Source: Acorus gramineus (taxonomy: Eukaryota; Streptophyta; Magnoliopsida; Acorales; Acoraceae). From it: DNA of 64,000 nt. The stretch is taken from the NCBI GenBank assembly GCA_030737835.1, contig CM060853.1, positions 17,914,895-17,978,894 on the forward strand, written 5' to 3'. Below are positions 39,182-64,000 of this stretch, one piece after another. Within the stretch, counting starts at the first letter, position 1. Each line of letters starts with the position of its first letter. The notes beneath the pieces were generated by a model. That model did not search any database. It had not been told where the DNA came from and saw only the letters and a program-made list of their open reading frames with translations. The position numbers were made by a program, and so were the translations under genes.

Positions 39182-42100
39182 ATGGAACAAACCATCTCCA
39201 AACCAACCATGAAGAGGTCTCTCTCTCTCTCTCTCTTACATAAAACAGCTTCCACAGTAAAAACTGCGTGTCTAACAAACATAGCTTTGTTTTGGGTTTT
39301 CAGGGTTGCAGTTGTCACAGGTGGGAACAAGGGAATTGGTTTTGAGATATGCAGGCAACTTGCCTCAAATGGGGTGGTGGTGATACTGACAGCAAGAGAT
39401 GAGAAGAGGGGACTTGATGCTGTTGAGAGTCTCAAAGGGTTTGGGCTGGTTGATGTTGGTTTTCATCAACTTGATGTCACTGATATTGCCTCTGCCTCTT
39501 CTTTGGCCAGCTTCATTGAGACCAACTTTGGAAAGCTTGATATATTGGTGAGTAATACTATGCATCATATATACACTATATATATTAGTAATTTGATTGT
39601 GATAACAAAAAAAAGGATAATTTGACAAAGTTATTGGCAGCTATGTAAAGAACAAACATTTCTACCGTGTTAAGGGTTTGTCTTGGTTTTGAGTTTTGGT
39701 GCTGACTTACCCACTTATTTATTAACGATTATTCGAAAGAATTTTTTATGGGACCGGAACAAACATGCAGATGTAGTCTTTCCAGCTTAACTATAAAGTT
39801 AGCCACGGAGCGTCCTCCAATATCAAAAAGAAAGAAAAAAAAAAGAACAAGAAACATTTGTGTTATGAGAAGATTTTGTTAATTTTGTTAAAAAGATGTT
39901 TTATATATTGTTTGTTGTGAATTTGGGTAGTGTTTGGAAGCGGATTTGAAAGAGAGTTATTCATTTGAAGTTGATTTTGAAATTAGATTCATAGTGAGCT
40001 GAGTATACATTTGTTAGATTGCTGAGCTACATGGGAACGAGTGGGGCCCTCATGGCCCATTTATATTTTTAAACTAAGTGTTTGATTTATTGTAGAAAAA
40101 ACCATTGGGGGCATATGGGACTCAAATTGGAACTGGAAAAAAAACTGTGCAACAACACTCTAAGTTTTTATGTTTTTTTGTTAGATGTCTTTTATGTTAA
40201 TTATATAAGTGATGATATAATCATTCCTCTTGCTATTTTGACAAAATATTATATAAGCATGAGAATAATGTTATTTAAATAATCACTGGGTTAAACATAT
40301 TTTTCCTTCAAAAATTTCACCCCCACTGGTTAGATTCTTGAGAAACTTCTTTTTTTCCGTTGTTTACAAGTTTGAAAACTGGGCCACATCACATTTGTGC
40401 ATTATGCTTTTGCATGATTATATTTAACCCAAATGTGTTTCAAAATGGTTCAAATAGTCCCAACTTTTGAAGAAAGCAAAATGAATACTTTTAGTTATAA
40501 AATGTGAATAAAGAGCTTTTCAAGAATCTAACAAAAATATGTTTTTTTGGAAAATTAATTTCAAAAGCAGGTTTCAAGGGAAAAACTCTTTTTCAAAAAC
40601 ATTTCATCTACTACCAAAGTTATGTTTATGTTTCCTACAAAAGCAGGGATCACCAAAAGCATAATCATCCAAACACGTTTCAAACGCTGATTTGCTTGCT
40701 ATTTTTATTGGAACAAGTCCTGTAACAACAGTTTGTGTGCAGGTTAACAATGCAGCGGTTGGTGGGTTGGAAGTTGATGATGTGAAGGTCCAGGCCTACA
40801 AAGAGAGTGATGAGGTGCGCAAGTTTATGTAGCAGGACCTTAGGACATATTTAAAACTTTATTTTCATAATCCTACAACTTGATGGTATATATATAACTT
40901 GGAAAAAAATTTCTGCTAGAAGCATCCACTTCTAACATTCTGTGGCATGTGATGAATGATGATGCCATTTCAGACTTTAGAAGTTTCAAAACTAATGTTC
41001 TGGGGAAGAGTTACATAAACAGGGGAAACATCAAGGAAAGTGGTATCAGACTATCATGTAAATAAAGTATAAAATCATATGTAGCAAACAATAATGCAAG
41101 AGATTGTATGATATCCATAGAGAGAAACTAAAATGAGACTCTACGTTTAAGTTTGCCTAAACAAGATCATAACTAACATAGGACTTTGTTACCAAGCATA
41201 TGCATCTTTATCAAAGTCCCATATTGATTAAGAATTAAAAAATTAATTATGAGATAATTCTGACTCTTTATCCTGCAGAAAGGTGACATATCTGGCTTGG
41301 TTAAAGGAGAACCTCATTACATGGCCGAGTTCTGTCTGAAGACGAATTTTTTTGGCGTCAAACAAGTAACCGAAGCGCTCCTTCCCCTTCTGAATTTGTC
41401 TGATTCAGCAAGGATTGTGAACGTCTCTTCAATTTATGGGCTGCTCAGTGTAAGAAATCTTCTGAATAAGTTTCAAATTCTATATCTCTCATTTACGCGA
41501 CGCGTTGTTGATTTTATGTTGCTTGTATTTAGTTGTTTGTAGATACAGTAAAAGTTCTTCTGCTTGTTAGATAAAATAATTTCCTTTTATCTCACAAAAT
41601 GTTATGTTTTTTTTTTTTTTTTTTTTTGACTAAATGGAAGGCATGCGCCTTAATTTTATTTCAAAACCAAAGCGGACATGCCCACACAAAATGTTATGTT
41701 GTGACCTTAAGCTTGTCACTGTTGATAAATTGGAGTTGCTTTGTTTAATTTGCAGTTCACATGACATGAAACAAAGATTCATAAGTGATGTCGCGTATTG
41801 TTACATCCCATGAAATCTCACTGTCTCTACAGTGAACACATTCCACTTGCTAATAATCTCTATCACGCATAAAAATCTCTTTTGATCGATAATCGTGTTT
41901 TCTCCTCCATTTCCATTGTTTCAGTACATCACCAATGAAAGAACCAGAGAGAGACTAGACAACATTGAAAGTCTAACAGAGGAAGGTCTCAATGAGGTGA
42001 TACAGGACTTCTTGAATGATTTTAAGGAAGGTCTATTGGAAAAAAATGGCTGGCCTGCTAGTCCATCTGCATATAAGATGTCCAAAGCAGCGGTGAACGC

Positions 42101-42302
42101 TTACACAAGGATCCTTGCAAAGAAGTACCCCAAGTTTATCATAAACTGTGTCACCCCTGGCTTTGTCAAAACAGACATAAATTTCAATACCGGCGTCTCG
42201 ACACCTGAAGAAGGCGCTCGCGGGCCTGTGAAGCTTGCTCTGTTGCCTGATGGAAGCCCTTCTGGCCTCTTCTTCAATGAAACAGAATTGTCAGTCTTTT
42301 GA
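39182..42302 (+). CDS. Short-chain dehydrogenase/reductase, copy A (salutaridine reductase / neomenthol dehydrogenase-like)
   Basis: NADPH-dependent carbonyl reductase of the plant SDR group that includes salutaridine reductase and (+)-neomenthol dehydrogenase; the actual substrate is unknown. Exons: 39182-39216, 39304-39547, 40743-40814, 41279-41449, 41925-42302. The total is 900 nt, 299 aa, a normal length for the group. Motifs: cofactor-binding TGGNKGIG (17-24), NNAAVGG (95-101), then a predicted catalytic tetrad N140 (KTNFFG), S168 (VNVSS), Y224 and K228 (YKMSK). The extra segment between SS and YxxxK (about 175-215) is the family's characteristic insertion. The ATG at 39182 ([12 protein letters not shown]) is the first in frame with a good context; a second ATG is at residue 10. 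An AATAAA lies at 42377-42382. First member of the tandem array; all motifs intact, so probably functional. Confidence 0.93.
41609..41684 (-). mobile_element. 5'-truncated retroposed insertion with poly-A and 16-bp target duplication
   Basis: A 76-bp insert starts with a poly-T run (a poly-A tail on the minus strand) and is flanked by identical 16-bp copies CACAAAATGTTATGTT at 41593-41608 and 41685-41700. This is the signature of LINE-machinery retrotransposition. It lies in the last intron of SDR copy A. Too short to assign to a LINE or SINE family. Confidence 0.88.
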
Positions 42303-42790: not shown

Positions 42791-44843
42791 TTGACAATTG
42801 ATCTTAACTGTTTAAACATATATGATGTGGAAAAGTTTCATATTAGTAGGTATTGATGGGATTGTCATCCATTACGTGTCTGGATGGACGACGTATGTTT
42901 ATCAAAATATATTAATAAGAATTATATCAATGATTTTATAATTAATGAAAGATTTTTAATTCTTTGATGGATACGTATCATCCATCAAAATATGTAGTGA
43001 TGGGATTATCATACGCACTATTGATCATGCAAACTTGTTATGACTAAAACCTCCTACCCCTGAGATTTTTCAAAATGATTCGAACAAGTGTACGATGCTC
43101 TTTATACCAATTGTTATTTTCATCTTCTCAATATGAATTCTGGCCTAAATGCCTAGTTTTATGTGGCTACATTTCTTACATTGACCACACAGCAATCACA
43201 ATTTTAATTTCATTAGTCATTATCAGACGTCTATTTTATTTGACATTGTGCATGCTTTGTTATCAAATGAAAGAAATGGAAAGTTCAAATCTAAGAGGCC
43301 TGGCATTCCATACATTAGATTTGAAAATCAAATCAAATTTACATGATATTTTTCACTTTATTTTTCAAATCACATTTGATTTTTTTTTTTTTTTTTTTGG
43401 TAGAAATCACATTAGATTTGAAAATGAATAAAAGGGTGGTAGAAATCAAATATGGGAATCTCTAACATACAAGTCTCATTTTAGAATTCGTTTTCAAATC
43501 ACGAAGAGGTTATGGCTTTTAAAATGAGCCAATCCTTAACATTTTCACATATTTTTTTTTAATCTCCGAAGCCTGCCTTATCGTTTGAACACAAACAAAT
43601 TTAATATAGACCCCAGTCAAGTCAACAAATCCATAAACAGACAATACTATGGATGCCAAACTTGAAAGCCACTTAAAAGCAATGTTTTAAAATCCGACCT
43701 GATCTGACCAGTTGAATGAGATCTATGTTTTAAAATCCGATCTATGTGATTTAAACAGATAAAACTAAGCATTAGTAAGAGTTAGGTCGATCTATCAAAT
43801 CAAGGCCCAAGCTCGAACCAAGTCAGCCCGCGAAAAAAATTAAAAAAAATTATTGGGGGCCAACCTGCCCCTGGGGAGGGGGCCAAGGGGCTACCACCTC
43901 CTCTTTAATTTGTGGGGCCCCCCCCCGGGGGGGGGGGGGGGGGGGGGGGGGGGGAAAGGGGGGCGCTCTTCCTGAATGAGATCCTCTATGTTCTCAACAC
44001 ATAAAAACAATATGTTGCCCGACCAATGAGTGTCATGCAGATGGTTCAAAATAAATTGAAAAGCATATGCACTTGTTTTATTATTGTAAAAAACATTACA
44101 AATGGTTTTAATTTTGTAGAGTTATTTTTTTAACATTTGAGTTACATATTTTTATTGGACAACACACAGTGTTTCTCTGTGATTATTACACAAGATTTGA
44201 ACCCCATCTGCCCTCTCCCCTAACATTGGGTCTTGAATAGGTCCGGTTTGGACATGCCTGTGGGTTGGGTTGGTGGGGTTTGTGGACTTCAGACTCAATG
44301 TTTATCTTTAAATTACACAAGACGTGAATTTTGTGTTTGAATCTAAAATACATCCCATATCTTCATTGGGTTGGGACATATCGGATTTAGATCCAACATT
44401 TAAGGGAACAAGCCTGCCCCAAATAGTCGATTTGGAACAATTTTTTTATGGAAAGTGATATGTCCAATCTCAATTGCAATTCACAGTGATTTTCTTTTTT
44501 TTAAAAAAAAAAAATCATACAAACACTTCCATTCCCCTTCATTTCCCCTCTCCACCCCTTGTCACCAATACAAAACTCGGGAATAATGTGGCAGGGGTAA
44601 CAATTCTCAATACGGTAAAATAAAAAAAAATTGAGGAAAAGATACAAAAAAATCAGAATAATAAATATATTAATTAAAATAAAAAAATTAGCAACCTAAA
44701 CTGAATTTATGATTTAATGTTATGAGGAATTATTATTTTTTTATGAATGGGAAAGAAGTTTAGTTTAGCAATGAGATAAGTGGTGGAATAAATCATAAAT
44801 TGTAATTGTGATGATAAGTGGGGGAGGACAACTTATCCCATTT
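42791..44843. other. Spacer between SDR copies A and B
   Basis: 43165-43380 matches 52530-52690 (3' flank of copy B) around GAGGCCTGGCATTCCAT, so it belongs to the duplicated unit. 43453-43650 matches the upstream region of copy A. 43856-43975 is an abrupt GC-rich island with extreme C and G homopolymers. No gene was seen. Confidence 0.6.
43918..43963. repeat. C9-G28 homopolymer block
   Basis: Nine C are followed immediately by 28 G, then AAA and six more G, inside otherwise AT-rich spacer. The block could form a hairpin or G-quadruplex, but is equally likely to mark a sequencing or assembly error. Confidence 0.9.
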
Positions 44844-45957: not shown

Positions 45958-46013
45958 GGTCATGCATATATATGTTTCAGTATACTGGCAAACAATATCC
46001 AATATATCCAACC

Positions 46014-49000
46014 ATGAAAAGGTCTCTCTCTCGCTCTCTCTTCCTTCCTCTTCTACTACATGAACAGAAGCTTCCATAACGAAACTTGTGAAACTCTTCT
46101 CACAAATGCACTCTTTTTGTTTTGGGGTTTCAGGGTTGCAGTTGTCACAGGTGGGAACAAGGGAATTGGTTTTGAGATATGCAGGCAACTTGCCTCAAAT
46201 GGGGTGGTGGTGATACTGACAGCAAGAGATGAGAAGAGGGGACTTGATGCTGTTGAGAGTCTCAAAGGGTTTGGGCTGGTTGATATTGGTTTTCATCAAC
46301 TTGATGTCACTGATATTGCCTCCGCTGCTTCTCTGGCCAGCTTCATTGAGACTAACTATGGAAAGCTTGATATACTGGTGAGATTCCATTCATCCATCAT
46401 ACAAGCATAACAAACTTTTTCTTTGAACTATTGGCTTCTTTATATAGAATAAAGTCAATATTTTTAGCCCCCGTATTTTTTTAAATTTCTAGGCTGGCCG
46501 TGGGTCAGTTTAATTATAAAATTGGCCCTCAGTCAATTTGATCAGGTCATCACCGAAATTTTATTTTATTTTTAAATAAGAGACGTGATTGAATATTACA
46601 TCTTCTCCAAGTCATGATTCAATATCAGGTATCTCACGTTACTATGAGATGTGATTTATCTCTTATACTTTCTTTTTTTTTACTTCAATTTTAAATTTTA
46701 AATTGTTGTTTCATAAAATAAATTTTAAATTTTATCCAAATTTTAAATTTTGATTTGATCTTAAATTTTAAATTTTAAATTCTAAGATTTCAATTTTTTT
46801 ATAGATAGATATGATGAAAATTTTATGGACAATGGAGAAATTCATGATAAATATATCATTAAATCTATCTATAAATCTTGATGCTCATAATTTAAAATTT
46901 GATTCCAAATTCAAATATAACAATTATTGCTAAAATTTAGAATTCATAAAAATCATGTTATTAATAGAAAATGTGATTTGTTATCATGTCTCACTAGAAA
47001 CATAATAACAAATCACGGCTCATGTCTAAAAAAAGGGGAAAAAATATAAGATTTTTTGCATGTATACCATTGCAAAATATATTATTTATTTTTAGGATAA
47101 AATGCATTTGGACCCCCTAAAATTTTTGAAACTTGCAAAAACACCCCCTGAAGTTCAAAAACATGCAATTACACCTTCTATTGTTAGATTTTTCGTTAAG
47201 ATGAAACAAAAGTACTTCAAAATTATTATTTTATAATTTAATACAATAATAGAGACAATAAATTAACTTTAGATGTGTTTTATGAATATCTAATACAATA
47301 ATCAACTTTTCAATTACACATGGATGCATTTTTTATATGAATTAACTCACACAACAGTTAATTAAAATGTGAAAACATAATAATGATTTAATTGAAAGGA
47401 TAAAACCGTATTTTTGCCCCCATCTTAATGGAAAATATAACAACAGGGGGTGTAAGTGCATGTTTTAGAATTTCAGGGGGTGTTTCTGTATGTTTCAAAG
47501 ACTTTAGGGGGTCTAAACGCAATTTACCCTTATTTTTATACCATTACAAAATGCATATTTATTTTTATACCATTGCAAATTTTATCAATCCAAAAATGTG
47601 CCACCCCCTTACTTTTTATAGCAAAAATTAAATTTAATTAGAGTTAACTTTTAACTAGACAAAAAAAATGACCAAAATAATCCTATTATAATCTTTTTCA
47701 TAATGTAAAGAATCAAGTTTTTGCATATACACCCTTCAAAAACTTGTTATTTATGTTTATACCATTAAAAATAATATATTTATTTTTGTTCTATTAAATT
47801 ATTTAGTAATTTTACATATTTATCACTCGAATTAGGTTTTGTCATATTTTTAAATGTCTGTTAATGCCATTGACATACAAAATATCACAATAACCTTACT
47901 TTCTAATACATACATACATACATAGACACAATCACACACACATACATGCATCAACTTTCCCACAATATTTTTAAATAAAAAAGTCTATATTTATTATATA
48001 CCATAAAACATAGGATTTTAATATTTAAATAAAAATTGATAATTAAAGAAAAATATTTTAAAAATACATTTTAAATATAAAAGATTTATTCAAAATTAAA
48101 GACATCATAGTTATTAATATTCAAAATTGATGCTATTTGATAATCACAAAAAATAATAGATTTTTTTGCATATATAACATCCAAAATGATCATGTTCTTT
48201 ATTGTATAGCATTAAATCGTTTTCATGGCTAAATTTTTTATTTTTTCCATGGTATAAAAAATAAATATACTTTTTTGATGGTATAAAATTAAAAACTATA
48301 TTTTGTAAGGGCAAAAATAAAAATAAAAATAAGGGCATTTCAATCATTTCTCCATGACTTTAACGGGGTTAGTAAAAAATTTGACGGAACTTAACGATGA
48401 TGGTAAAAATGCATAATTTTTAAATATTTTAATGGTATAAAAATAAATAGACTATTCGTAATGGTATAAAAATAAATAATTTATTTTTCAATGGTATACA
48501 TGTAAAAAAAATCCAAAAATATATCAGATATATTGACCTGGTCAAACTTGCCCAGGGTTGGTTATGCAATTAAAGCTGGCCTAGGCGAGTCTTGAAATTA
48601 AAAAAAAAATGGGGTTAATAATGAAAATTGTCTAATATACCAGTCACTAGGTTAGGGGAAAGTGGAGACAGACAGGAGTGACTGATCAAGAAAGAACAGA
48701 TGATTTGACTGATTTTATGCTGGTGTACGTGAATTTAGTAGTTATTTCCATAATCACAATGTTCTAAGCAAATATTTGGCACGGGATCCATTCTTTATAT
48801 CAAGTGTATTTTTGTGAATGACACGTGATTGTACAGTAAATGTATAAATCTATTCTTCCCATCACTATGAGAAATATGTACAAAAAAAAGAAAAACTATG
48901 ACATTGCTGTGAAGGGAACATGTGACGACACAAATTAGAGCTAGGTTTTTAAAATTATGAAGAATGTGTTAAACCATATGAAGTGAATAGATATCCAGGT

Positions 49001-51183
49001 TCCCAAAAATCACAAATTTGGTGAACATATGTTTGTCTGCCGAATGATATATGAGGTATCCAATCGTTGAAATTTTTCTGAACATTCAGAATGAGTTCAG
49101 AGTACTTTGTGACTATGATTTTCTCTCATGGGAAGTGCAATTTGCTTGCTATTTTTATGGAATAACTCATGTAACAATATCTTGTGTGCAGGTTAACAAC
49201 GCAGGGATTGGCGGGGTGGAAATTGATCATGAGAGGTTACAGGCCGTCAAAGAGAGTGATAAGGTGCGCGAGTCTATATAGCAGGACATTTGGGCATGTG
49301 ATAATCTTCATTTTCATTGTCTTTGGATCATAATATGAGGCATATGAAGGTGCATTAATTGAAGTATAAACTTTGAAATTATCTGAATTTTAAGTCTTTT
49401 AGTTACGGTAATTGTCTATACGAAGCAAAGAATAATGCCGTGTTTGTCACCCCTATATGGTACCAGAAAAGAGAAACTAAAATGTAGACAAGTTGAACAT
49501 ATGGTGCTAAACAAGGTTCTAAGTAAAACAGGACTTTGTTACCGAGCATATGCATCTTGTCGATAAGCTTTATAAAATGATAAGATGCTTCTGATTCTTA
49601 ATACTGCACTGCAGGTAGATGATTTAGAGAGCTTGGTTAAAGCAGAACCTTATAACATGGCCGAAGACTGTCTGAAGACGAATTTTTATGGTGTCAAACA
49701 TGTAACTGAAGCACTCCTTCCCCTTCTTCATTTGTCTAATTCACCGAGGATTGTCAACATCTCTTCGTTATATGGACTGCTCAGTGTAAGAATCTCGCCA
49801 AGCATCTCATAGTTATTCGCCTTATGATGGTTAAGCTGAAGTAGGAATACATGACATTCTCCATGATAACTTTTGAAACATATGTCTTGTCGTTGAAATG
49901 ATAAGTGCATTTATGTGATAAGCTTGTCACACTTGATGATTTGGAGTTACTCTGATTGCAGTTTTTGTGACATAAAACAAAGGTATATGAACACTGCACT
50001 AACACAAGATATATACACACACATATGATTGTCTATATATGTATTCACACATATAATTCTGCCAAGGTCCCTATTTGAGATCTGCATGCCTTCCTTCTAG
50101 TTTCATTCTATTGCATGCTCTTTTCAAGAAGACAATTAGTTTGGTAAATGTTTTGATTTTTTTTTTTTTTTTGTGGCTAGAAAATGTTTTAATACTATCT
50201 TAAAAAAAAAAAAAAATGTTTCACTACTATATCGATCCATCATAAATGTGTTGTTTTTACATGCTCATTGAGACAGCATAATCCAAGACTCAGCTGTGAT
50301 TAGAGCCTACTTGAGACTAAATATGCATTCAACCTTCATTGAAAGGAAAGAATCTGCATTATTATGTCAGTGATGCCTAAATCTAACATTTCCAGCCGCT
50401 CAACCAAGTGTTTGATCATTGACTGCGCATTTTAGAGATGTCGGTATAAGTTCTCCATAGAGTGGTAATCACGTGGAATACGTTCTTTCATATTTTCGAG
50501 TATTGCCATTTTTGTTTCTCTATAATTACAAGCTCTTAATGTGTTTTATCTTTTATTTTACATGCCATGAAATCTCACCATCTCTCAACCAAACAAATTC
50601 CACTTGCTAATAGTTTTTCTCTCACAATCATTAAAAATTCTGTGTTGGGTAAGAAAAGTCTTACTCTATAAGCAGGAGTGAGACTCGAACTCAGGACCTT
50701 TTAGTGAAGAGGGGGTATATCAGCTAAGCTTCCATGAGGTGGTTTGTTTATAAAAATTCCTTCGGTCGATGATGTTATTTTATTCTCCATTTGTGTTTGT
50801 TTCAGTTCATCCCAAACGAAAGAATCAGACAAAAACTAGACGACACCAATAGCCTAACAGAGGACGATCTTGATGAGGTAACACAGAGCTTCCTGAGTGA
50901 TTTTAAGGGGGGTCTCTTGGAAACAAATGGCTGGCCTACAAGTCCATCTGCATATAAGATTTCCAAAGCAGTTCTGAATGCCTACACAAGGATCCTGGCA
51001 AAGAAGCAGCCAAAGGTTATCATGAATTGTGTGCACCCCGGTTTTGTCAAAACAGACATAACACTTAATCTTGGAGTGTTCACCCCTGAAGAAGGCGCTA
51101 GAGGCCCCGTGAAGCTGGCTTTGTTGCCCAATGACAGCCCTTCGGGCCTCTTCTTCGACCAAACAGAATTGTCAACCTTCTAA
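46014..51183 (+). CDS. Short-chain dehydrogenase/reductase, copy B (mosaic)
   Basis: Same family and likely chemistry as copy A. Exons: 46014-46021, 46134-46377, 49192-49263, 49615-49785, 50806-51183. The total is 873 nt, 290 aa. Cofactor motif TGGNKGIG (8-15), NNAGIGG, predicted tetrad N131, S159, Y215, K219. The tiny first exon encodes only MKR before the family's conserved intron; an in-frame ATG at 45972 would add 14 residues (MFQYTGK...). Exon 2 is almost identical to copy A, while exons 3-5 and introns 1, 2 and 4 resemble copy C; exon 5 differs from C by only two residues. Intron 2 is 2.8 kb and hosts two nested Mutator-type elements. Intron 4 contains a reverse-oriented SINE-like piece. 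An AATAAA is at 51272-51277. Reading frame and motifs are intact. Confidence 0.92.
47049..48514. mobile_element. Mutator-type TIR element in SDR copy B intron 2 (outer)
   Basis: The left terminus AGATTTTTTGCATGTATACC and the inverted right terminus GGATTTTTTTTACATGTATA, both continuing into ACCATTG and ATTATTTATTTTTA, form the TIR. Flanks AAAAATATA at 47040-47048 and 48515-48523 are identical 9-bp target duplications. The interior has repeated TTTTTATACCATT units and no transposase. A second element is nested in it. Absent from the corresponding introns of C and D. Confidence 0.8.
47095..47529. mobile_element. Mutator-type MITE with 95-bp TIRs, nested
   Basis: Near-perfect terminal inverted repeats of about 95 bp (47095-47187 and 47438-47529; GACCCCCTAAA and ACACCCCCTGAA occur in both). 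Flanks TTATTTTTA at 47086-47094 and 47530-47538 are a perfect 9-bp target duplication. It sits just inside the left end of the 47049-48514 element, so it inserted later. The 435-bp unit lacks coding capacity. Confidence 0.93.
50645..50745 (-). mobile_element. SINE-like tRNA-related fragment in SDR copy B intron 4
   Basis: On the minus strand an A-box-like TTAGCTGATATA is followed about 30 bp later by a B-box-like GTTCGAGTCTC, the order seen in tRNA-derived SINEs. The same insertion is present in copy C (59828-59930), so it predates their duplication. Confidence 0.6.
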
Positions 51184-53523
51184 GTGAAGATATTTGGATG
51201 TGTAGCAAAAAATAATTGTTGATGACAATCGGATATTACTAGTATATACTTGTACTGTTATCGCATTTATGAATAAAATTGTACTTTCATTGGTCATTAT
51301 GATGCTTATGTTTTCTGACAAAATGTTTTATATAGTGAAATCTGTAGGCTGTTGGATAATTTATATTTACAGGCTGTCTGGTATCTGTGACTTCCTTCAC
51401 TAACATGTTACATGCATTTGGTTTCTTGATTTCTGGAAATGACAATCATCACAGTGAAATGGCTAGGAGAATTGACCATGATAGTTGCAGTTGGTGTTAA
51501 TGATACAACCAAGAATATAAATTTAAGTAAAATATGACTTTGCTTATGGAGCCAATGTTTGAATGCATGGACAGCTGATCTTACCTGTTTTAAAATATAT
51601 GATATGGGACTTGTGAAGGGAGCAAATTTGCAACGATCATCACATTTATGAATTTGAATGCACTGTTGGTCATGCAGGTCTGTTATGATTATAACCTCCT
51701 GCGACATAATGATATTAATAAGTGTATGATATTATTTGCTACTCTGTAATTTTCATCTTCTCACTAGGATTGTTTGGCGTAACTGCCTAAGTTTTGTGTG
51801 GCTTCATTTCTACATTAACCAGCCCTGAGGACAACACAGCAATCTGGAGATGCCTGGTCAAGTGATGTAGGACAGATTATGCAAATGGGAGCACCAAAAG
51901 AAGTCCATCAGATAAATTACAAATCACTGGTCACGATCTCGGAATCGCACGAAATTTATCGAGGAGATCTTCTAGATTAGTTGTTATACAACTAACAATT
52001 CTTATTTTTTTAAATTAATTCATTTAGGTCTTTAAATTAGCGATTTTACTATTTTTAGTAAGTTTTAGATTTGTGATATCTCAATCATAACAGATCGGAA
52101 TTGATTTCTATCAATTCCTATGATCATTGAGGATCTCATAGAATCAGAAAAATTAGTTTTTGAATTTTACTATTTTTAGTAATTTTTTAATTTTATGTTA
52201 TTAGTATAAATAGCAGACTTCGCGGAAGGTTTTGATCCTTTTGTTCCGGGCGGAATAGCCTCTCATCATGTAATCTAGGGTTGACAGTTTTTTATCAATA
52301 ATATTTCGAATTTCTCTATTTTGGGGTTTTCTTCCTTGTGGATTGAAGGAGCTTATGAGATCGCAACACTGGTTGGATCTTTTTATCAGTTTCACGCTGC
52401 GTTATCAAGTGATCATAAATTATAGCTACCCTTTTTGTGGCCAACCATTCCATTTTTAATTGATTACCAGAAGAAAAAAAATTCATGTATCCTCATTTTA
52501 AAATGTCATACTGAGAGTTCTGATTGGAATCACAATTTAAATTTCATTATTCATTATCTGTCTTCTATTTTACTTGACAGTGTGGATGCTTTTGCTATCA
52601 ATGAAAGAAATGAAAAGTTCAAATTTAAGAGGCCTGGCATTCCATGCTCACAAATCAATTTGAAAATTGAATCAAATTTACATATTATTTTGTATTTTGA
52701 TGATCCTTAAATTAGTTTCAAGTAATAAACGATATCTGGGTGAAAAACAATTCAAGTAAAATGACTCCAGTTGAGCTGACACTGAACTTTGGAGCAGATA
52801 TCATTTGTTTACACTTTCAGTCTCAACAAGCTGCCAAAATTCATCTAAAGATGAGAGAGGGAAAAAAAAAATCTCTTCATAGGTAGACTAATATTCAAAT
52901 GTACCCTCACAAGGCTACAAGGTTTAGAATAAGCTCCCTAGCAACCACAAAAGATCGTAATCTTTGAAACATTCTACGTAACATACAGAAAAAAACGACC
53001 ATATAATGGATTGAATTGATTGAAAAACTCCCGTTTTTCTATAATAATGACTTGGATAGGAAATGTTATGCTTAATATTTTTTGCACTTTGAATTACATA
53101 ATGTTTATGTAGATTTGGTTTTTTCATAATTGAATATATATTAATATAATATAAAATATACTGTGTTAAGTGATTTCATGTAGTACTGTGACATTTGTAG
53201 ATGTGATCGGGAAAAAGATGATTTTTGTTTCGAATATTGCAAACAATTAGTTTTATTATGTTGGATGAGGACTTAAATTCTTACCCTCCTACAGTGGAAA
53301 ATTTGGCCGAGAAAAAAATTACATATTTAATTCGTGAAAATACCGTACGTATTTCCTTTGAAAGCGCCATTAATGTTGTTTTAAAACTCTCTCTCATCAT
53401 AAAGGTTTACACCTCACAAAAAAAATCATGTCTTGTTAATAATAGTGTTCTCTATTACTTGTTTTAGAGCGCGGCGCGCACACACACACAAACAGGTCAA
53501 AGCAAACCATAACCAATCTAACC
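51184..53523. other. 3' flank of copy B and upstream region of copy C
   Basis: 51184-51523 is shared with the 3' flank of copy C. 52530-52690 matches the 3' flank of copy A. From about 53071 the sequence is shared with the upstream region of copy D. A solo LTR interrupts the 3' flank. No other gene is visible. Confidence 0.7.
51863..52404 (+). mobile_element. Solo LTR with 5-bp target duplication
   Basis: The 542-bp unit begins TGATGTAGGACA and ends TTTCACGCTGCGTTA, and is flanked by TCAAG on both sides (51858-51862 and 52405-52409). It matches, in the opposite orientation, the two LTRs of the element in SDR copy C intron 2. The TG...TA rather than TG...CA ends are shared by the family. A full element presumably collapsed by LTR-LTR recombination. 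Confidence 0.9.
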
Positions 53524-56500
53524 ATGAAAAGGTCTCCTTCTCTCTTCTCTTCCTCTTCTACTACATGAACAGAAGCTTCCATAACGAAACTTGTGAAACT
53601 CTTCTCACAAATGCACTCTTTTTGTTTTGGGGTTTCAGGGTTGCAGTTGTCACAGGTGGGAACAAGGGAATTGGTTTTGAGATATGCAGGCAACTTGCCT
53701 CAAATGGGTTGGAAGTTATACTGACAGCAAGAGATGAGAAGAGGGGGCTTGATGCTGTTGATAGTCTCAAAGGGTCTGGGCTTGTTGGTGTTGGTTTTCA
53801 TCAGCTTGATGTCACTGACCCTGTCTCTGTTGCTTCTTTGGCCAACTTCATTGAGTCCCACTTTGGAAAGCTTGATATACTGGTGAGATTCCATTCATCC
53901 ATCATATTAGCATAACAACTTTTTCTCTGAACTATTGGCATCTTTATATAGAATATAAAGTCAATAAACTTTTGGGGAAAGTTGAATGCATGCTTTTTTT
54001 GTACTTTCTTAGATACAAGAAGAAGAGAAGCACATGCCCCAGTCGGCGATCCCCAAAATAAAACCCTTAGAGCATCTCCAATGGAGAACTCTAAAATGGA
54101 GTCTCAAGATATATTAAAAAAATAAAAAAGTGAGTTTAGAGTCTCACTACTCATTCATCAACTCCAACCACAATCTCTATTTTCATCTCTATTATATTTT
54201 TTTATATTTTTTAATAAAACTTTAATTTATCATGTCTCTTATTTTTTTAATGTATTATTAGTTTCGATTAGAATAAACTCATTTTAGAACATAAGTGTAA
54301 ATAATAATTAATATAATATTAATGTAAAAAAATAAAAAATATATTAAATATATAAAAATTTTAAATATATGTTAAACATATTCAATATTAGACTCATTTG
54401 AGTCGTATCGACGACATTTATCCAATGTATCAATTTTATGAAAATTAAACTTATATTATATAAGTTATCAAACATTATTAAAAAAAAAAAAAAAAATAAC
54501 AAACCTCCATATTTGGAGGCTCAAACAGTGAGCCTCAAAATATGGAGTCTCATTTAGTGGCCTCTAAAATAGAGGTTGTTTTTGCCTATCCATTGGAGAG
54601 AAAATAAACGCCAAAATGAAGATAAAGAGTACCATTGGAGTTGCTCTTAGAAAGAGAGAGAACCCGAAGAAAGCCACCACCCCCAAAACACTGGCTCGGA
54701 TAAAATGTCGATTTTACCCACCAGGAAAAACCAAACAGATTAGCATAGAAACGTGTTATTTAAACGAAAGGCTAAGAGCAACTCCAATCGGACGCCAAAA
54801 TGAAGATCTTCAATTTCAAAATGAGCACTATATTTGGAGACGTCTCCATATGTCACATCAATGCGGAATAATACCATTAATGACATTATTAACTTATAAT
54901 AACTTTTAATAAATTACATTTACTCTTACAAAATTATAAATTTTTTATTTTTTATTTGTATTTAATAAAAATATGGAATTTTGAAAAAAAAAATTATAAT
55001 TTTTTTTTATAGATGTCTTATTCCATCAAGTCAGACAACTGAATTAGATACAAGTCCACTTGCAACTTTACATGCATATATTAATTTTTTTATATGTAAA
55101 TATAGAATTAATATAATTGGTTATTTACATTAAAATTAGGACATAAATGTCAATAAACAATAAAGATGAAAAAAACAAATGGTAGAATGAAAATTATAAC
55201 AAATCAAAATAGTGATTTGAAGACCTACACCAAATAAATTGAAGATCCACCATTAGAGTTAATAAGTCTTTAAAACAACAAAATCTTCAAAATGAAGACC
55301 CTATTAGAGCTCAGGGGTCTTCAAAAGTCTAAAATCTCCAATAAGAGTCTTCAAAATAAAGACCCCCACCGGAGATGCTCTAAAACAGGTAAACCCAAAA
55401 AAGTGTCGACCGTGTCTTAATTAGGATCAATCCTTGTAATACAGAAGGTATATGGACTGGTATATAGACTAGTCACTAGGTTAGGGAAAGTGGAGACAGA
55501 CAGGAATGACTGACCAAAAAAGAAAAGATGACTTGACTGATTTTATGTTGGTGTGACTTTAATAGTTATTTCCATGATGACTGACACACGTTGTAATGGA
55601 TAAAAAGATTCATAATTTTCTTGAATCTACAATGAATAAAAAAAATAAAAAAGGAGGAAATTTTTAAAATATTATTGATAAAAACTGTAAACCCTAGATT
55701 ACACGTCTTTCTTTTATACTAAATAACAAAAAATTAAAAAATTACTAAAAATAGTGAAAATTGAAATTAGTTGTAACTCAATCTATGGGATCCTAGATAA
55801 TCATAAGAATTGATAGAGATTAATTTCGATTTGTTACGAGAGAGATATCACAAATCTAAACTTATTAAAAATAGTAAAATCGCCAATTTGAATGCCTAAA
55901 TAAAAGAATTTTCAAAAACTAATAACAACTAATCTAGAAGATCTCTTCGATATTCTTTTCCATGTAAAATTTAGTGCGATTCCGATATCATAACCCTTGA
56001 TTTATAATTTATTTGGTAGACCTCTTATAGTGGTCCCGTTTGCATTATATGTCTAGCATCAGATTCATCCTCTTCAAAAGAACTCGTCCTCGAGTTATTC
56101 TGCTCCTCAATTAATGTTTTCTTGTATTTTACTTTTGGCAAACAGAGAGACGTATTCTTGACTTCAAATTCCTTCTCAATCAAATCGATCACGTAGAAAG
56201 TTGGATGTACATTGATTTGTAGCAAAAGCTTCTTGGTAGTTGCAATGTTCTCATCATTAGCATTGTTGATGATGGCATAAAAAAAACGCTCTTCTAGATG
56301 GTGCATGGAGTCTGCAACACAAATTTCTGTAAGGGATCTTCTATCTTTGGGGTCACCATTAAGGAAAATGATTTCTCTTGGTCTCCTCTGATAACCTCTT
56401 CAAAATCAACAAAGAAAACAACATCCTCCACTTATTTGTTTGATATGTCCTCATCAACAGAGTTGATCCGCTCTCCTTTTTCTTTTTCAAACTCTGCGCC

Positions 56501-59500
56501 ATCATATACATTATCAACTTCTGGTTCAACCAGAACTTTACTCTCTTGGTGAATTTGATTAGAGCAAAAATCTGATTAATTGCAATCGTCATGCTTCTTT
56601 GATGATGGCATATCATAAGAGTTGGCCCTCGAATCATCCCCATCTTTTGTATGACTTGCTCTTGTCGCTTCTTACGCCTTTGACATCTCTAGTCGTGATT
56701 CTACCCTTACAATTTGGCGACAATTTTAATACAATTGAGTCAAATATCGTTCATAATCTGGTGGTAGAAATCGATCCAAGAGGAGTTGTTTCATCATCCA
56801 CATACGAACAAGTGCTTGAAGTTGGTCCCACCAAACGGCAACACCACTCTTTAATCGAAACGCCACCAATCTGACCATCTTTTCCTCTGGAATCTCCATC
56901 ATCTCAAATAATCCCTCGACCTCTGAGATCCAGTCAAGGAAATCCTCGATTTGCATGTCTCAATTGAAATATGGAATCTCTGCCTTCATTTGATAATCGT
57001 AGGATTCCATTTGCCGCCTCCTCGATATCTGTGAAGTCCATCACCTTCGTCATCCGAATCTTCCTCATTATGATCAGATTGATAATGAAGAGGACGTCGA
57101 ATCACGTTCGGAGCAATAGGTTGACCTTGAGCAAATCCCTCAGCACATCTCCTGTCACCTTCAGGATGCCTGTTGTTGACGTTGAGGTTCAGGCCAGCAA
57201 TCATCGCTTGGATCTCTCGCATCTGATCACGTTGTTCCTCGAACGCTTTCCACAGGTCCTCCAACCCATGACCACCGTCAATAGGTTGGCTGTCTCTCAT
57301 TTTGTTATTTGCCATCAATGCCAAGCAAATTCTCGCTCTGGTACCACCTAACGCAACGTGAAACGGATAAAAAAATTCAACTAGCGTTGAGATCTTATAA
57401 GCTCCTTGAATCCACAAGAAATAAAAACCCCAAAAGGGAGGAAATTCAGAATCTTATTGACAAAAACTGTAAACCCATGTTACAAGTCATCCATTTATAT
57501 TAAATAATAGAAAATTTAAAAATTACTAAAAATAGTAAAAATCAAAATTACTTGCAACTCTATCTATGGGATCCTAGATTATCATAGGAATTGATAGAGA
57601 TCGATTCCAATTTGTTATGAGAGAGATATCACAAATCTAAAACTTACTAAAAATAAAAAAATCGCTAATTTGAAGCCCTAAATAATGAATTTTTGGAAAC
57701 TAAAAATGATTAGTTGTATAACTACTAATCCAAAAGATCTCTTCGATATCTTTCTCCATGTAAAATTTCGTACGATTCCAAGATTGTGACCTTTGATTTA
57801 TAATTTATTTGGTGGACCTCTTCTAGTGGTTCCATCTACATAATATGTCCTACATCAGTCACAATGTTCTAAAAGCAAATACTTGGCCCAGGGTCCATTC
57901 TTCTTTATATTAAAAAGTGTACTTTGAATGACACGAGATTTTACAGTAAATGTATAAATGTATTCTTCTTATCACCATGTGAAACACGCACAAAAAAGTG
58001 AAAAACAATGTTATTGGTGTGAAGGGAGATGTGACAACACAAATTAGAGCTTGGTTTTTAAAATTATGAAGAATGTGTTAAACCATCTGAAGTGAATAGA
58101 TACCCATGTTCCCAAAAAACACAAATTTGGTGAACATAAGTTTGTCTAGCCAAAGGATACAAGAGGTGTCCAATCGTTGAACTTTTTTTGAATATTTAGA
58201 ATGAGTTCAGAGTACTTAGTGACTATGGTTTTCTCTCATGGGTAGTGCAATTTGCTTGCTATTTTTATGGAATAACTCATGTGACAACATCTTTTTTCAC
58301 AGGTTAACAACGCAGGGATTAACGGGGTGGAATTTGATGACGAGAAGTTAGAGGCCGTCAAAGAGACTGATAAGGTGCGCGAGTCTATATAGCAGGACAT
58401 TTGGGCATGTGATGATCTTCATTTTCATTGTCTTTGGTTTTCATTTTCTTTGGATCATAATATGAGGCATGTGAAAGTGCATTAATTGAAGTATAAAACT
58501 ATGAAATTATCTGAATTTTAAGTCTTTTAGCTCCGGTAATTGTCTATATGTAGCAAAGAATAATGATGTGTTTGTATGGTATCAGTAGAGAGAAACTAAA
58601 ATGTCTAAACAAGATTCTAAGTAAAACAGGACTTTGTTACCAAGCAGCAAGCATATGCATCTTGTCAGTTAAGCTTTATAAAATGATAAGATGCTTCTGA
58701 TTCTTAATACTGCACTGCAGATAGATGATTTACGGAGTTTGGTTAAAGCAGAACCTTATAACATGGCCGAAGGCTGTCTGAAGACGAATTTTTATGGCGT
58801 CAAACATGTAACTGAAGCACTCCTTCCCCTTCTTCATTTGTCTCATTCACCGAGGATTGTAAACATCTCTTCGTTATATGGGCTGCTCAGTGTAAGAATC
58901 TCGCTAAGCATCTCATAGTTATTCGCCTTATGACAGTAAAGCTGAAGGAGGAATGCATGAAAATCTCCATGACTTTTGAAACATGTCTTGTCATTGAAAT
59001 GATCATTGCATTTATGTGATAAGCTTGTCACACTTGATGATTTGGAGTTGCTCTGATTGCAGTTTATGTGACATAAAACAAAGGTATATGAACACTGTAC
59101 TAACACAAGATATACACACACACATATGATTGTCTATATATGCATTAACACATATAATTCTGCCAAGGTCCCTATTTCAGATCTGTATGCCTTCCTTCTA
59201 GTTTCATTCTATTGCATGCTCTTTTCAAGAAGACAATTAGTTTGATAAATGTTTTGATTTTTTTTTGTGGTTAGAAAATGTTTTAATACTATCTTTAAAA
59301 AAAATGTTTCGATACTATATCCATTATAAATGTGTTGTTTTTACATGCTCATTGAGACAGCATAATCCAAGATTCAGCTGTGATTAGAGCCTACTTGAGA
59401 CTAAATAGGCATTCACATTAATTGAAAGGAAAGAATCTGCATTATTATGTCAGTGATGCCCAAATCTGCATTATTATGACAGCATAGACCAAGACTCAGC

Positions 59501-60355
59501 TGTGATTAGAGCCTACTTGAGACTAATATGCATTCAACCTTAATTGAAAGGAAAGAATCTGCATTATTATGTCAGTGATGCCTAAATCTAACATTTCCAG
59601 CCGCTCAACCAAGTGTTTGATCATTGACTGCGCATTTTAGAGATGTCGGTATAAGTTCTCCATAGAGTGGTAATCACATGGAATACATTCCTTCATATTT
59701 TCGAGTATTGCCATTTTTGTTTTTCTATAATTACAAGCCCTTAATGTGTTTTATCATATATTTTACATGCCATGAAATCTCACCATCTCTCAACCAAACA
59801 AATTCCACTTGCTAATAGTTTTTCAGTGAGTCTTACTCTATAAGCAGGAGTGAGACTCGAACTCAGGACCTTTTAGTGAAGAGGGGGTATATCAGCTAAG
59901 CTTCCATGAGGTGGTTTGTTTATAAAAATTTCTTCGGTCGATAATGTGATTTTATTCTCCATTTGTGTTTGTTTCAGTTCATCCCAAACGAAAGAATCAG
60001 ACAAAAACTAGACGACACCGATAGCCTAACAGAGGACGATCTTGATGAGGTAACACGGAGCTTCCTGAGTGATTTTAAGGGGGGTCTCTTGGAAACAAAT
60101 GGCTGGCCTACAAGTCCATCTGCATATAAGATTTCCAAAGCAGTTCTGAATGCCTACACAAGGATCCTGGCAAAGAAGCAGCCAAAGGTTATCATGAATT
60201 GTGTGCACCCCGGTTTTGTCAAAACAGACATAACACTTAATCTTGGAGTGTTCACCCCTGAAGAAGGCGCTAGAGGCCCCGTGAAGCTGGCTTTGTTGCC
60301 CAATGACAGCCCTTCGGGCCTCTTCTTCGACCAAACAGAATTGTCAACCTTCTAA
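53524..60355 (+). CDS. Short-chain dehydrogenase/reductase, copy C
   Basis: Same family as copies A and B. Exons: 53524-53531, 53639-53882, 58303-58374, 58721-58891, 59978-60355. The total is 873 nt, 290 aa. TGGNKGIG (8-15), NNAGING, predicted tetrad N131, S159, Y215, K219. Exon 2 is a distinct allele type ([12 protein letters not shown], later [13 protein letters not shown]) identical in protein to copy D and different from A and B. Upstream, the position of the copy A start codon is TCA-AAG instead of ATG-GAA, so the MKR methionine is the only sensible start. Intron 2 is 4.4 kb, swollen by two Harbinger-type MITEs and an LTR element. Intron 4 has an extra 120-bp tandem duplication relative to B. 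AATAAA at 60444-60449. Confidence 0.93.
54070..54646. mobile_element. PIF/Harbinger-type MITE, specific to SDR copy C
   Basis: Ends GAGCATCTCCAATGG (left) and GAGCAACTCCAATGG (inverted right), flanked by TTA on both sides (54067-54069, 54647-54649). Copy D has the uninterrupted empty site CCCTTAGAAAG near 61745-61755, so the boundaries are certain and the insertion postdates the C/D duplication. 577 bp, no coding capacity. Confidence 0.95.
54776..55380. mobile_element. PIF/Harbinger-type MITE shared by copies C and D (copy C locus)
   Basis: Ends GAGCAACTCCAAT (left) and GAGCATCTCCGGT (inverted right) with TAA on both sides (54773-54775, 55381-55383). 605 bp, AT-rich, non-coding. The same insertion is found in copy D at 61878-62455. 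Confidence 0.88.
55582..57857 (-). mobile_element. Ty3/gypsy-type LTR element, internally deleted, in SDR copy C intron 2
   Basis: Two direct LTRs: 57349-57857 (5' LTR, begins TGATGTAGGACA on the minus strand) and 55582-56061 (3' LTR). Directly inside the 5' LTR is a primer-binding site TGGTACCAGAGC (57335-57346), close to the initiator tRNA-Met type. Between lie gag remnants: a frame from about 57308 down to 56986 and one from 56956 to 56726 that has the retrotransposon gag pattern ([27 protein letters not shown]). A further frame, 56306-56025, runs into the 3' LTR. Protease, reverse transcriptase and integrase are missing, and the 2.3-kb element is non-autonomous. Flanks are ATGAC and GTCAC (ATCAC in copy D). 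Confidence 0.88.
56726..57308 (-). pseudogene. Degenerate gag remnant of the LTR element
   Basis: The first part starts about 50 bp inside the primer-binding site ([11 protein letters not shown]) and is rich in charged residues; the second carries the conserved gag core with WW and LPPDYE. The two parts are in different frames, so no intact Gag can be made from this copy. Confidence 0.75.
59345..59585. repeat. Tandem duplication in SDR copy C intron 4
   Basis: A block of about 120 bp (landmarks CAGCTGTGATTAGAGCC, CTGCATTATTATG, CAGTGATGCC) occurs twice in tandem here, while copy B has it once (about 50268-50385). Confidence 0.85.
59828..59930 (-). mobile_element. SINE-like tRNA-related fragment in SDR copy C intron 4
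   Basis: Same sequence and orientation as 50645-50745 in copy B, with the B-box-like GTTCGAGTCTC and A-box-like TTAGCTGATATA on the minus strand; slightly shortened at one end. Confidence 0.6.
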
Positions 60356-61193: not shown

Positions 61194-64000
61194 ATGAAAA
61201 GGTCTCCCTCTCTCTTCTCTTCCTCTTCTACTACATGAACAGCTTCCATAACGAAACTTGTGAAACTCTTCTCACAAATGCACTCTTTTTGTTTTGGGGT
61301 TTCAGGGTTGCAGTTGTCACAGGTGGGAACAAGGGAATTGGTTTTGAGATATGCAGGCAACTTGCCTCAAATGGGTTGGAAGTTATACTGACAGCAAGAG
61401 ATGAGAAGAGGGGGCTTGATGCTGTTGATAGTCTCAAAGGGTCTGGGCTTGTTGGTGTTGGTTTTCATCAGCTTGATGTCACTGACCCTGTCTCTGTTGC
61501 TTCTTTGGCCAACTTCATTGAGTCCCACTTTGGAAAGCTTGATATACTGGTGAGATTCCATTCATCCATCATATTAGCATAACAAACTTTTTCTTTGAAC
61601 TATTGGCATCTTTATATAGAATATAAAGTCAATAAACTTTTGGGAAAGTTGAATGCATGCTTTTTTTGTACTTTCTTAATCTAATATATATAGATACAAG
61701 AAGAAGAGAAGCACGTACCCCAGTCGGCGATCCCCAAAATAATACCCTTAGAAAGAGAGAGAACCCGAAGAAAGCCACCACCCCCAAAACACTGGCTCGG
61801 ATAACATGTCGATTTTACCCACCAGGAAAAACCAAACAGATTAGCATAGAAACGTGTTATTTAAACGAAAGGGCTTAGAGCAGCTCCAATCGGACGCCAA
61901 AATGAAGATCTTCAATTTCAAAACGAGCACTATATTTGGAGACCCAGTATCTGTTATATGTCACATCAATGTAGAATAATACTATAAATAACATTATTAA
62001 CTTATAACAAGTTTTGATAAATTATATTTACTCTTACAAAATTATAAATTTTTTATTTTTTATTTGTATTTAATAAAAATATGGAATTTTTCCTATTCCA
62101 TCAGGTCAGACAACTGAATTAGATACAAGTCCACTTGCAACTTTACATACATATATTAGTTTTTTTATATGTAAATATAGAGTTAATATAATTGGTTATT
62201 TACATTAAAATTAGAACATAAATGTCAATAAACAATAAAGATGAAAAAAACAAATGGTAGAATGAAAATTATAACAAATCAAAATAGTGATTTGAAGACC
62301 TACACCAAATAAATTGAAGATCCACCATTGGAGTTGATGAGTTTTCAAAACAATAAAATCTTCAAAATAAAGACTCCATTAAAGTTCAGGGGTCTTCAAA
62401 AGTCTAAAATCTTCGATGGGAGTTTTTAAAATGAAGACCTCCATTGAAGATGCTCTAAAACAGGTAAACCCAAAAAGTGTCGACCGTGTCTTATTAGGGA
62501 TCAATCCTTGTAATATAGAAGGTATATGGACTGGTATATAGACTAGTCACTAAGTTAGGGAAAGTGGAGACAGACAGGAATGACTGACCAAAAAAGAAAG
62601 GTGATTTGACTGATTTTATGTTGGTGTGACTTTAATAGTTATTTCCATGATCACTGACACACCTTGTAATAGATAAAAAGATTCATAAGTTCCTTGAATT
62701 CACAAGAATAAAAAAAAATTCTAAAAAGAAAAAATTTAGAATATTATTGATAAAAATTGTAAACCCTAGGTTACACGTCTTCCTTTTATACTAAATAACA
62801 AAAAATTAAAAAATTACTAAAAATAGTAAAAATTGAAATTAGTTGTAACTCAATCTATGGGATCCTAGATAATCATAGGAATTGATAGAGATTAATTTCG
62901 ATTTGTTATGAGAAAGATATCACAAATCTAAACTTACTAAAAATAGTAAAATCGCTAATTTGAATGCCTAAATAAAAGAATTTTAAAAAACTAATAACAA
63001 CTAATCTAGAAGATCTCTTCGATATTCTTTTCCATGTAAAATTTAGTGCGATTCCGATATCATGACCCTTGATTTATAATTTATTTGGTAGACCTCTTAT
63101 AGTGGCCCCGTTTGCATTATATGTCTAGCATCAGATTCATCCTCTTCAAAAGAACTTGTCCTCGAGTTATTCTGCTCCTCAATTAATGTTTTCTTGTATT
63201 TTACTTTTGGCAAACAGAGAGACGTATTCTTGACTTCAAATTCCTTCTCAATCAAATCGATCATGTAGAAAGTTGGATGTACATCGATTTGTAGCCCAAG
63301 CTTCTTGGTAGTTGCAATGTTCTCATCATTAGCATTGTTGATGATGGCATAAAAAAAACGCTCTTCTAGATGGTGCATGGAGTCTGCAACACAAATTTCT
63401 GGAAGGGATCTTCTATCTTTGGGGTCACCATTAAGGAAAATGATTTCTCTTGTTCTCCTCCGATAACCTCTTCAAAATCAACAAAGAAAACAACATCCTC
63501 CACTTATTTGTTTGATATGTCCTCATCAACAGACACCTCTTGTGACCTTTGATTTATAATTTATTTAGTGGACCTCTTCTAGTGGTTCCATCTACATAAT
63601 ATGTCCTACATCAGTCACAATGTTCTAAAAACAAATACTTGGCCCGGGGTCCATTCTTCTTTATATTAAAAAGTGTACTTTGAATGACACGAGATTTTAC
63701 AGTAAATGTATAAATGTATTCTTCTTATCACCATGTGAAACACGCACAAACAAGTGAAAAACAATGTTATGGGTGTGAAGGGAGATGTGACAACGCAAAT
63801 TAGAGCTTGGTTTTTAAAATTATGAAGAATGTGTTAAACCATCTGAAGTGAATAGATACCCATGTTCCCAAAAAACACAAATTTGGTGAACATAAGTTTG
63901 TCTAGCCAAAGGATACAAGAGGTGTCCAATCGTTGAACTTTTTTTGAATATTTAGAATGAGTTCAGAGTACTTAGTGACTATGGTTTTCTCTCATGGGTA
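61194..64000 (+). CDS. Short-chain dehydrogenase/reductase, copy D (cut by window end)
   Basis: Exons visible: 61194-61201 (MKR) and 61306-61549, together 84 residues with TGGNKGIG (8-15), identical in protein to copy C over this part. The rest of the window is intron 2. Sequence 63614-64000 matches 57858-58245 of copy C, whose exon 3 begins at 58303, so the next exon should start about 60 bp beyond the window edge. Intron 2 is shorter than in C because it lacks the C-specific MITE and part of the LTR element. Whether the gene is complete cannot be judged here. Confidence 0.85.
61878..62455. mobile_element. PIF/Harbinger-type MITE shared by copies C and D (copy D locus)
   Basis: Orthologous to 54776-55380 in copy C: same flanking sequence, left end GAGCAGCTCCAAT, right side GATGCTC followed by TAA. 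It was duplicated with the gene and has since accumulated small indels. Confidence 0.85.
62655..63613 (-). mobile_element. Deleted copy of the LTR element in SDR copy D intron 2
   Basis: Same insertion as 55582-57857 in copy C, with flanks ATCAC (62650-62654) and GTCAC (63614-63618). About 1.3 kb is missing relative to copy C: the sequence jumps near 63532 from the internal 3' part into the start of the 5' LTR, removing gag, the primer-binding site and most of the 5' LTR. Confidence 0.9.

Follow-up and report, generated by a model that had tools for sequence, protein, structure and literature searches.

Probable gene conversion of a single exon between two copies of a tandem SDR array in Acorus gramineus

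A tandem array of five SDR genes

The analysed stretch of Acorus gramineus DNA, a window of 64,000 nucleotides (C7:17914895-17978894), carries a tandem array of five SDR genes, copies A to E, of which copy E and exons 3-5 of copy D lie beyond the window (Table 1). The initial annotation had counted four copies, and the fifth emerged from a search of the genome (398.6 Mb, 137 contigs). The gene models are predicted ones, with exons set from splice motifs and homology, and the reading frames of D and E are intact once completed with downstream sequence. The DNA of B exon 2 has five matches in the genome, all within this one array, at 100%, 97% and, for the remaining three, 91% identity. The B protein gives 43 exon-level matches, the best of them outside the array being one gene on C1 and two on C5. 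No further close copy of the array genes was found in the genome by these DNA and protein searches, in which only the best candidates were scored.

Table 1. Coordinates of the array genes, of exon 2 and of the stretches shared between copies (window positions unless C7 is given)
Feature	Position	Strand	Description
Copy A gene	39182..42302	+	exons 39182-39216, 39304-39547, 40743-40814, 41279-41449, 41925-42302; ORF intact, 299 aa
Copy B gene	46014..51183	+	exons 46014-46021, 46134-46377, 49192-49263, 49615-49785, 50806-51183; ORF intact, 290 aa
Copy C gene	53524..60355	+	exons 53524-53531, 53639-53882, 58303-58374, 58721-58891, 59978-60355; ORF intact, 290 aa
Copy D gene, first part	61194..64000	+	exons 61194-61201, 61306-61549; exons 3-5 at C7 ~17978953-17980990
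Copy D exon 4	C7 ~17979355-17979525		Ala for serine; compare B 49615-49785, C 58721-58891
Copy E	exon 2 at C7:17981943-17982186		after D, outside the window
Copy B exon 2	46134..46377	+	244 bp between AG and GT; SDR residues 4-84
Copy A exon 2	39304..39547	+	partner of the tract in B
Minimal A/B conversion tract	46204..46354	+	first to last site with A=B and C different; 18 sites; two of the exon's three B=C sites inside
Maximal A/B tract	~46116-46382	+	could take in the final ~18 bp of intron 1 and, beyond the donor site, the first 5 bp of intron 2
B 5' patch	46000..46203	+	97-100% to C/D/E; presumed 5' UTR end, exon 1, intron 1, first 70 bp of exon 2
B 3' patch	50240..51440	+	~94-100% to C/D/E; 3' half of intron 4, exon 5, 3' flank

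Two of the five copies, A and B, score 115.4 and 114.3 bits with the Pfam model PF00106 (adh_short), for which the cut-off is 26.6. The best PDB matches of B extend over nearly the full length (E 1.8e-102 to 1.3e-77) and comprise Alcohol dehydrogenase 1 (5o98), compared with which B is without single residues at two places, salutaridine reductase (3o26), of which a stretch of 11 residues is absent from B within exon 4, and two further plant SDRs, (-)-isopiperitenone reductase (5lcx) and (-)-menthone:(+)-neomenthol reductase (5l51). By homology, the array genes are SDRs related to plant Alcohol dehydrogenase 1, salutaridine reductase and menthone:neomenthol reductase.

The catalytic tetrad of classical SDRs consists of N, S, Y and K. 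Motif residues amounting to 27 protein letters (not shown), together with YxxSK, are common to all five copies, and the SS motif is alike in A, B and C. TGxxxGIG and the residues aligned with N152, S180, Y236 and K240 of 3o26 are kept in A, B, C and E; S180 is the residue we take to be the catalytic serine. D carries Ala at residue 159 instead of the Ser (the second of NISS) that aligns with S180 in the other four copies. No other motif change occurs in the array, and D is outside the A/B tract described below. TARDEKR is present in all copies, its R34 and R38 aligning with R44 and K48 of 3o26. According to PMC2871135, the NADPH phosphate is held in Gre2p and SSCR by an Arg/Lys pair (Arg44/Lys48 in the latter), and the poppy enzyme loses activity when its analogous arginine is exchanged. 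Through R44 and K48 of 3o26, we infer that R34 and R38 of the array correspond to the phosphate-binding pair. The retention of the motif residues in A, B, C and E makes it probable that these four are functional ketone reductases using NADPH. D, which has no serine there, has probably been impaired or altered and may be inactive, its frame being otherwise intact.

A is a well-diverged copy, and the other four are closer to one another. The downstream flank past ~51535 is common to B and E, while C and D differ there and continue into the next unit, so that C and D probably arose through unequal crossing-over within a B...E array. Several other features were noted along the array. Intron 1 of A (39217-39303; 87 bp) is open and in frame, and its retention would give an N-terminally longer protein. 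Between A and B, at 43918-43954, a run of 9 C is followed by 28 G, possibly a sequencing or assembly artefact. Intron 2 of C contains an LTR-retrotransposon-like insertion with TG...CA ends (55582-57857), which is present in shortened form in D (62655-63613) and absent at the matching site in B (~48753-48757). Its LTR-like arms in C are 80% alike, more diverged than the ~9-15% between B and C around the site, an odd finding if the insertion postdates the split of B from C/D/E. Intron 2 of B has an inverted self-match at 47094-47530 (457 columns, 70%), resembling a fold-back element.

The stretch of exon 2 shared by copies A and B

The initial annotation described exon 2 of B as nearly identical to that of A and unlike that of C and D, and the exon-by-exon alignment bears this out: A and B agree at 236/244 positions (96.7%), as against 221/244 (90.6%) for B and C and 223/244 (91.4%) for A and C, with C, D and E identical throughout (244/244). 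Elsewhere A and B agree at 57/86 positions of intron 1 (66%), 38/78 in the first 80 bp of intron 2, 58/72 in exon 3, 140/171 in exon 4 and 300/378 in exon 5; the corresponding values for B and C are 104/106 in intron 1, 64/72 in exon 3, 162/171 in exon 4 and 376/378 in exon 5. The proteins follow the same course, with 79/82 identical residues between A and B in exon 2 and 92/125 in exon 5, and 69/82 and 123/125, respectively, between B and C; the two residue differences first reported for exon 5 are thus confirmed. The wider claim that the rest of B matches C stands for intron 1 and exon 5, and fails for most of intron 2 and for exons 3 and 4.

The 26 sites of exon 2 that vary among A, B and C are divided into 18 with A=B, three with B=C and five with A=C, and the ratio of A=B to B=C sites is 5:11 in exon 3, 1:23 in exon 4 and 1:77 in exon 5. 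A and B differ at 8/244 sites of exon 2 versus 45/243 of exons 3 and 4 combined (Fisher p 2.7e-8), and of these eight sites three are private to A and five to B. The first 70 bp of the exon are the same in all five copies, and the A-like signal of B begins only at 46204. The switch had been put at about 200-250 bp; this agrees with a conversion scale of 150-270 bp.

The run of A=B sites in exon 2 has a maximum ascent of 16, which was reached in 0/200,000 permutations of the informative sites, the highest value being 9. A GENECONV-like scan covering exons 2-5 of all five copies returned, within exon 2, a significant A/B fragment at CDS 71-186, or 71-150 at zero mismatches (global 0/2,000 at three mismatch settings), in line with the expectation set out at the start. 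The likeness reaches synonymous sites as well as amino acids, and the run switches back on both sides: A-B dS is 0.088 in exon 2, 0.186 in exon 3, 0.324 in exon 4 and 0.587 in exon 5. Gene conversion at this scale, as first proposed, is therefore supported for the A/B tract by the site-run tests and by synonymous divergence. Because C, D and E form one sequence here, the tests on this exon compare three distinct ingroup sequences.

Rooted trees used the C1 paralog (O) as sole outgroup, ~0.93 substitutions/site away, with the two C5 paralogs left out. The best tree of exon 2 joins A and B (bootstrap 83), and that of exons 3-5 joins B and C (bootstrap 62). The best topologies thus differ between the two parts of the gene, but the AU tests are non-significant, the outgroup being too distant: p ranges over the alternatives from 0.196 to 0.805 in exon 2 (B+C 0.196), and in exons 3-5 A+B has p 0.445, only A+C being rejected (p 0.023). 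The contrast of trees, which the initial annotation had made its own yardstick, is suggestive only. The A/B claim rests on the site-run tests, which need no root.

Patches shared by copy B with C, D and E

Compared with C, D and E in steps of 100 bp, B is 97-100% identical over 46000-46199 and 88-89% in the two steps that cover the remainder of exon 2, and from late intron 2 into intron 4 the identity of B and C is 84-98%. Intron 2 measures 2,814 bp in B and 4,420 bp in C and is alignable between them only at its ends, over ~80 bp and ~560 bp, leaving ~46461-48634 of B without alignment. This stepwise comparison loses C and D right of 50384 and E over 48754-50271, and the copies were realigned from 49192 on; the loss of C and D probably came from a local repeat in intron 4 that broke collinearity. 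In exons 3 and 4, 10/81 residues differ between B and C.

After realignment, the summed B-C differences come to 65/998 over 49192-50241 versus 24/1167 over 50242-51441, and in exon-free steps to 43/563 versus 13/567. Exon 5 of B differs at two of 378 positions from C, at six from D and at three from E, B-C dS is 0 in this exon and 0.10 in exon 4, and the GENECONV-like scan returned significant B/C, B/D and B/E fragments that end in exon 5. The 5' and 3' patches are probably separate further conversions between B and C/D/E. The 3' patch could partly reflect lower mutation or constraint, and it is seen in the exon-free steps too. B consequently combines native parts with several converted stretches and is not a C gene with one foreign exon.

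In the 3' flank, six successive informative sites at 51246-51284 have B=D and C=E, a possible further exchange of very short extent. In the region 58303-58891 of C and its counterparts in D and E, intron 3 shows no substitutions (330/330 aligned sites alike), with one 16 bp gap in the comparisons with C. Exon 4 of these copies differs at 3-6/171 sites, mostly by amino-acid changes, and one codon encodes R in C, V in D, R in E and E in B.

Origin, direction and mechanism of the exchange

The likeness of exon 2 in A and B very probably reflects interlocus gene conversion after B left the C/D/E line, the tract measuring between 151 and ~270 bp. An origin without exchange, in which exon 2 was conserved as the cofactor binder or A and B converged under selection, can appeal to the residues B shares with 5o98, which number 54/82 in exon 2, 39/81 in exons 3 and 4 and 75/125 in exon 5. 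It has next to no plausibility, since the low A-B dS of exon 2 (0.09 versus 0.19-0.59 in the other exons) means that protein conservation alone is not the cause; moreover, in exon 2 B is farther from C than from A and the order is reversed in exons 3, 4 and 5, and relative to the C1 paralog the DNA of A, B and C is no more alike in exon 2 (55.7-56.6%) than in exon 5 (56.9-60.1%). Close tandem copies are prone to misassembly, and the exon 2 of one copy might accordingly have been filled with reads of the other; the private differences on both sides, three in A and five in B, make such an artefact extremely unlikely. Another possibility is that exon 2 of C, D and E was replaced from some other paralog, with A and B retaining the old version. 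Once the first 70 bp are set aside, B and C do diverge more in exon 2 than in exons 3 and 4, and the outgroup, at the 18 A=B sites, is like A/B at five, like C at six and like neither at seven, a split that leaves neither version of the exon plainly ancestral. Yet the distance of C from A is smaller in exon 2 than elsewhere in the gene, no other close copy appeared among the best candidates scored in the genome, and A and B are still far too close in exon 2, so that an exchange between them would be needed anyway; replacement of the C/D/E exon is very unlikely.

For the gene conversion between A and B, the direction is close to even, with a slight preference for transfer from A to B, since the 70 bp that open the exon, the same in all five copies, are better placed in the patch shared by B and C/D/E. 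The two directions depend on how the exon is cut. A differs from C at 21/244 sites of exon 2 versus 46/243 of exons 3 and 4 (Fisher p 0.001), and B from C at 23/244 versus 17/243 (Fisher p 0.41). If the exon 2 of B overwrote that of A, A would be the mosaic, and this single event would account both for A lying closer to all the other copies in exon 2 than it does in exons 3 and 4 and for the B-C divergence of exon 2 being nothing unusual; Bayes factors for this direction in an earlier estimate, scaled and unscaled, were 0.6-115. Without the first 70 bp, however, B-C divergence exceeds the expectation for a native B, and transfer from B to A is given somewhat less than an even chance. The identification of A as recipient from the Fisher tests had to be dropped in view of the slower protein evolution of exon 2, seen in most comparisons made, and of the 70 bp common to all five copies. 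The opposite transfer, to which we give even odds, has the diverged A donating exon 2 and B later passing its 5' UTR, intron 1 and first 70 bp to the ancestor of C, D and E, the later step explaining the identity of these 70 bp across the array at the price of a second event. With the 70 bp removed, B-C dS in exon 2 is 0.24 and dN 0.12, above B-C in exons 3 and 4 and nearer to the A-C level. Bayes factors for transfer from A to B, scaled by the distances to 5o98, 3o26 and O (exon 2 ratios of 0.52-1.09 relative to exons 3 and 4 and of 0.73-1.04 relative to exon 5), are then 1.8-37 with exons 3 and 4 as baseline and 0.6-9.5 with exons 3-5; for the whole exon they are 0.16-3.1 and 0.01-0.11, respectively. 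B had originally been named as the recipient, an assignment only slightly favoured over its opposite, the whole exon leaning from B to A and the exon without its first 70 bp from A to B.

Conversion between A and B would have started from misaligned tandem copies, with non-reciprocal repair equalizing their exon 2, and the heteroduplex, or the part of it kept by repair, would have ended near the exon edges. The near-coincidence of tract and exon is most simply explained if introns 1 and 2 of A and B were already too diverged to pair, and these diverged introns probably stopped the tract. Conversion templated by mRNA was also considered and set aside: it is expected to continue from exon 2 into exon 3, and the tract does not. 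In plants, meiotic hotspots tend to adjoin promoters and terminators, and crossover regions of Arabidopsis are enriched in A-rich, CCN and CTT motifs, as stated in a review (PMC10957645). In the one array analysed here, the three patches lie near the two ends of the gene, and intron 1 opens with a CT-rich run. Events may have formed a relay, in which B received exon 2 from A and handed on the first 70 bp of it to the ancestor of C, D and E, the gene ends near transcription start and stop serving as exchange points while the middle introns drifted apart; we regard this sequence of events as rather doubtful. If true, it would be a trace, between paralogs, of the promoter and terminator recombination hotspots of plants. 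In plant tandem families such as RPP8 of Arabidopsis (PMC6771003), interlocus gene conversion likewise turns single duplicates into mosaics; the present case differs in that an enzyme family is concerned and that the tract spans about one exon between diverged introns. A literature search on gene conversion in this enzyme family turned up no paper on plant SDR arrays.

Within exon 2, the motifs TGGNKGIG, TARDEKR and LDVTD occupy residues 8-15, 32-38 and 59-63. A and B differ from C at residues 27, 28, 44, 49, 53, 64, 65, 67, 72, 76 and 77, and from each other at 54, 68 and 78; none of these positions falls within the cofactor or catalytic motifs. The proposal that conversion shuffles cofactor and catalytic modules within the array therefore finds no footing, the motifs of A, B and C being alike and the differing exon 2 residues lying outside them. 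Residues outside the motifs could have small effects, and nothing about the exchanged ones points to changed cofactor use or chemistry. Among plant tandem duplicates an exchange of this kind is unremarkable. A and B nevertheless provide a clean, small case of conversion making single-exon mosaics in a plant enzyme array: the copy taken for the mosaic can depend on where the exon is cut, and whole-gene trees of such copies mix histories.
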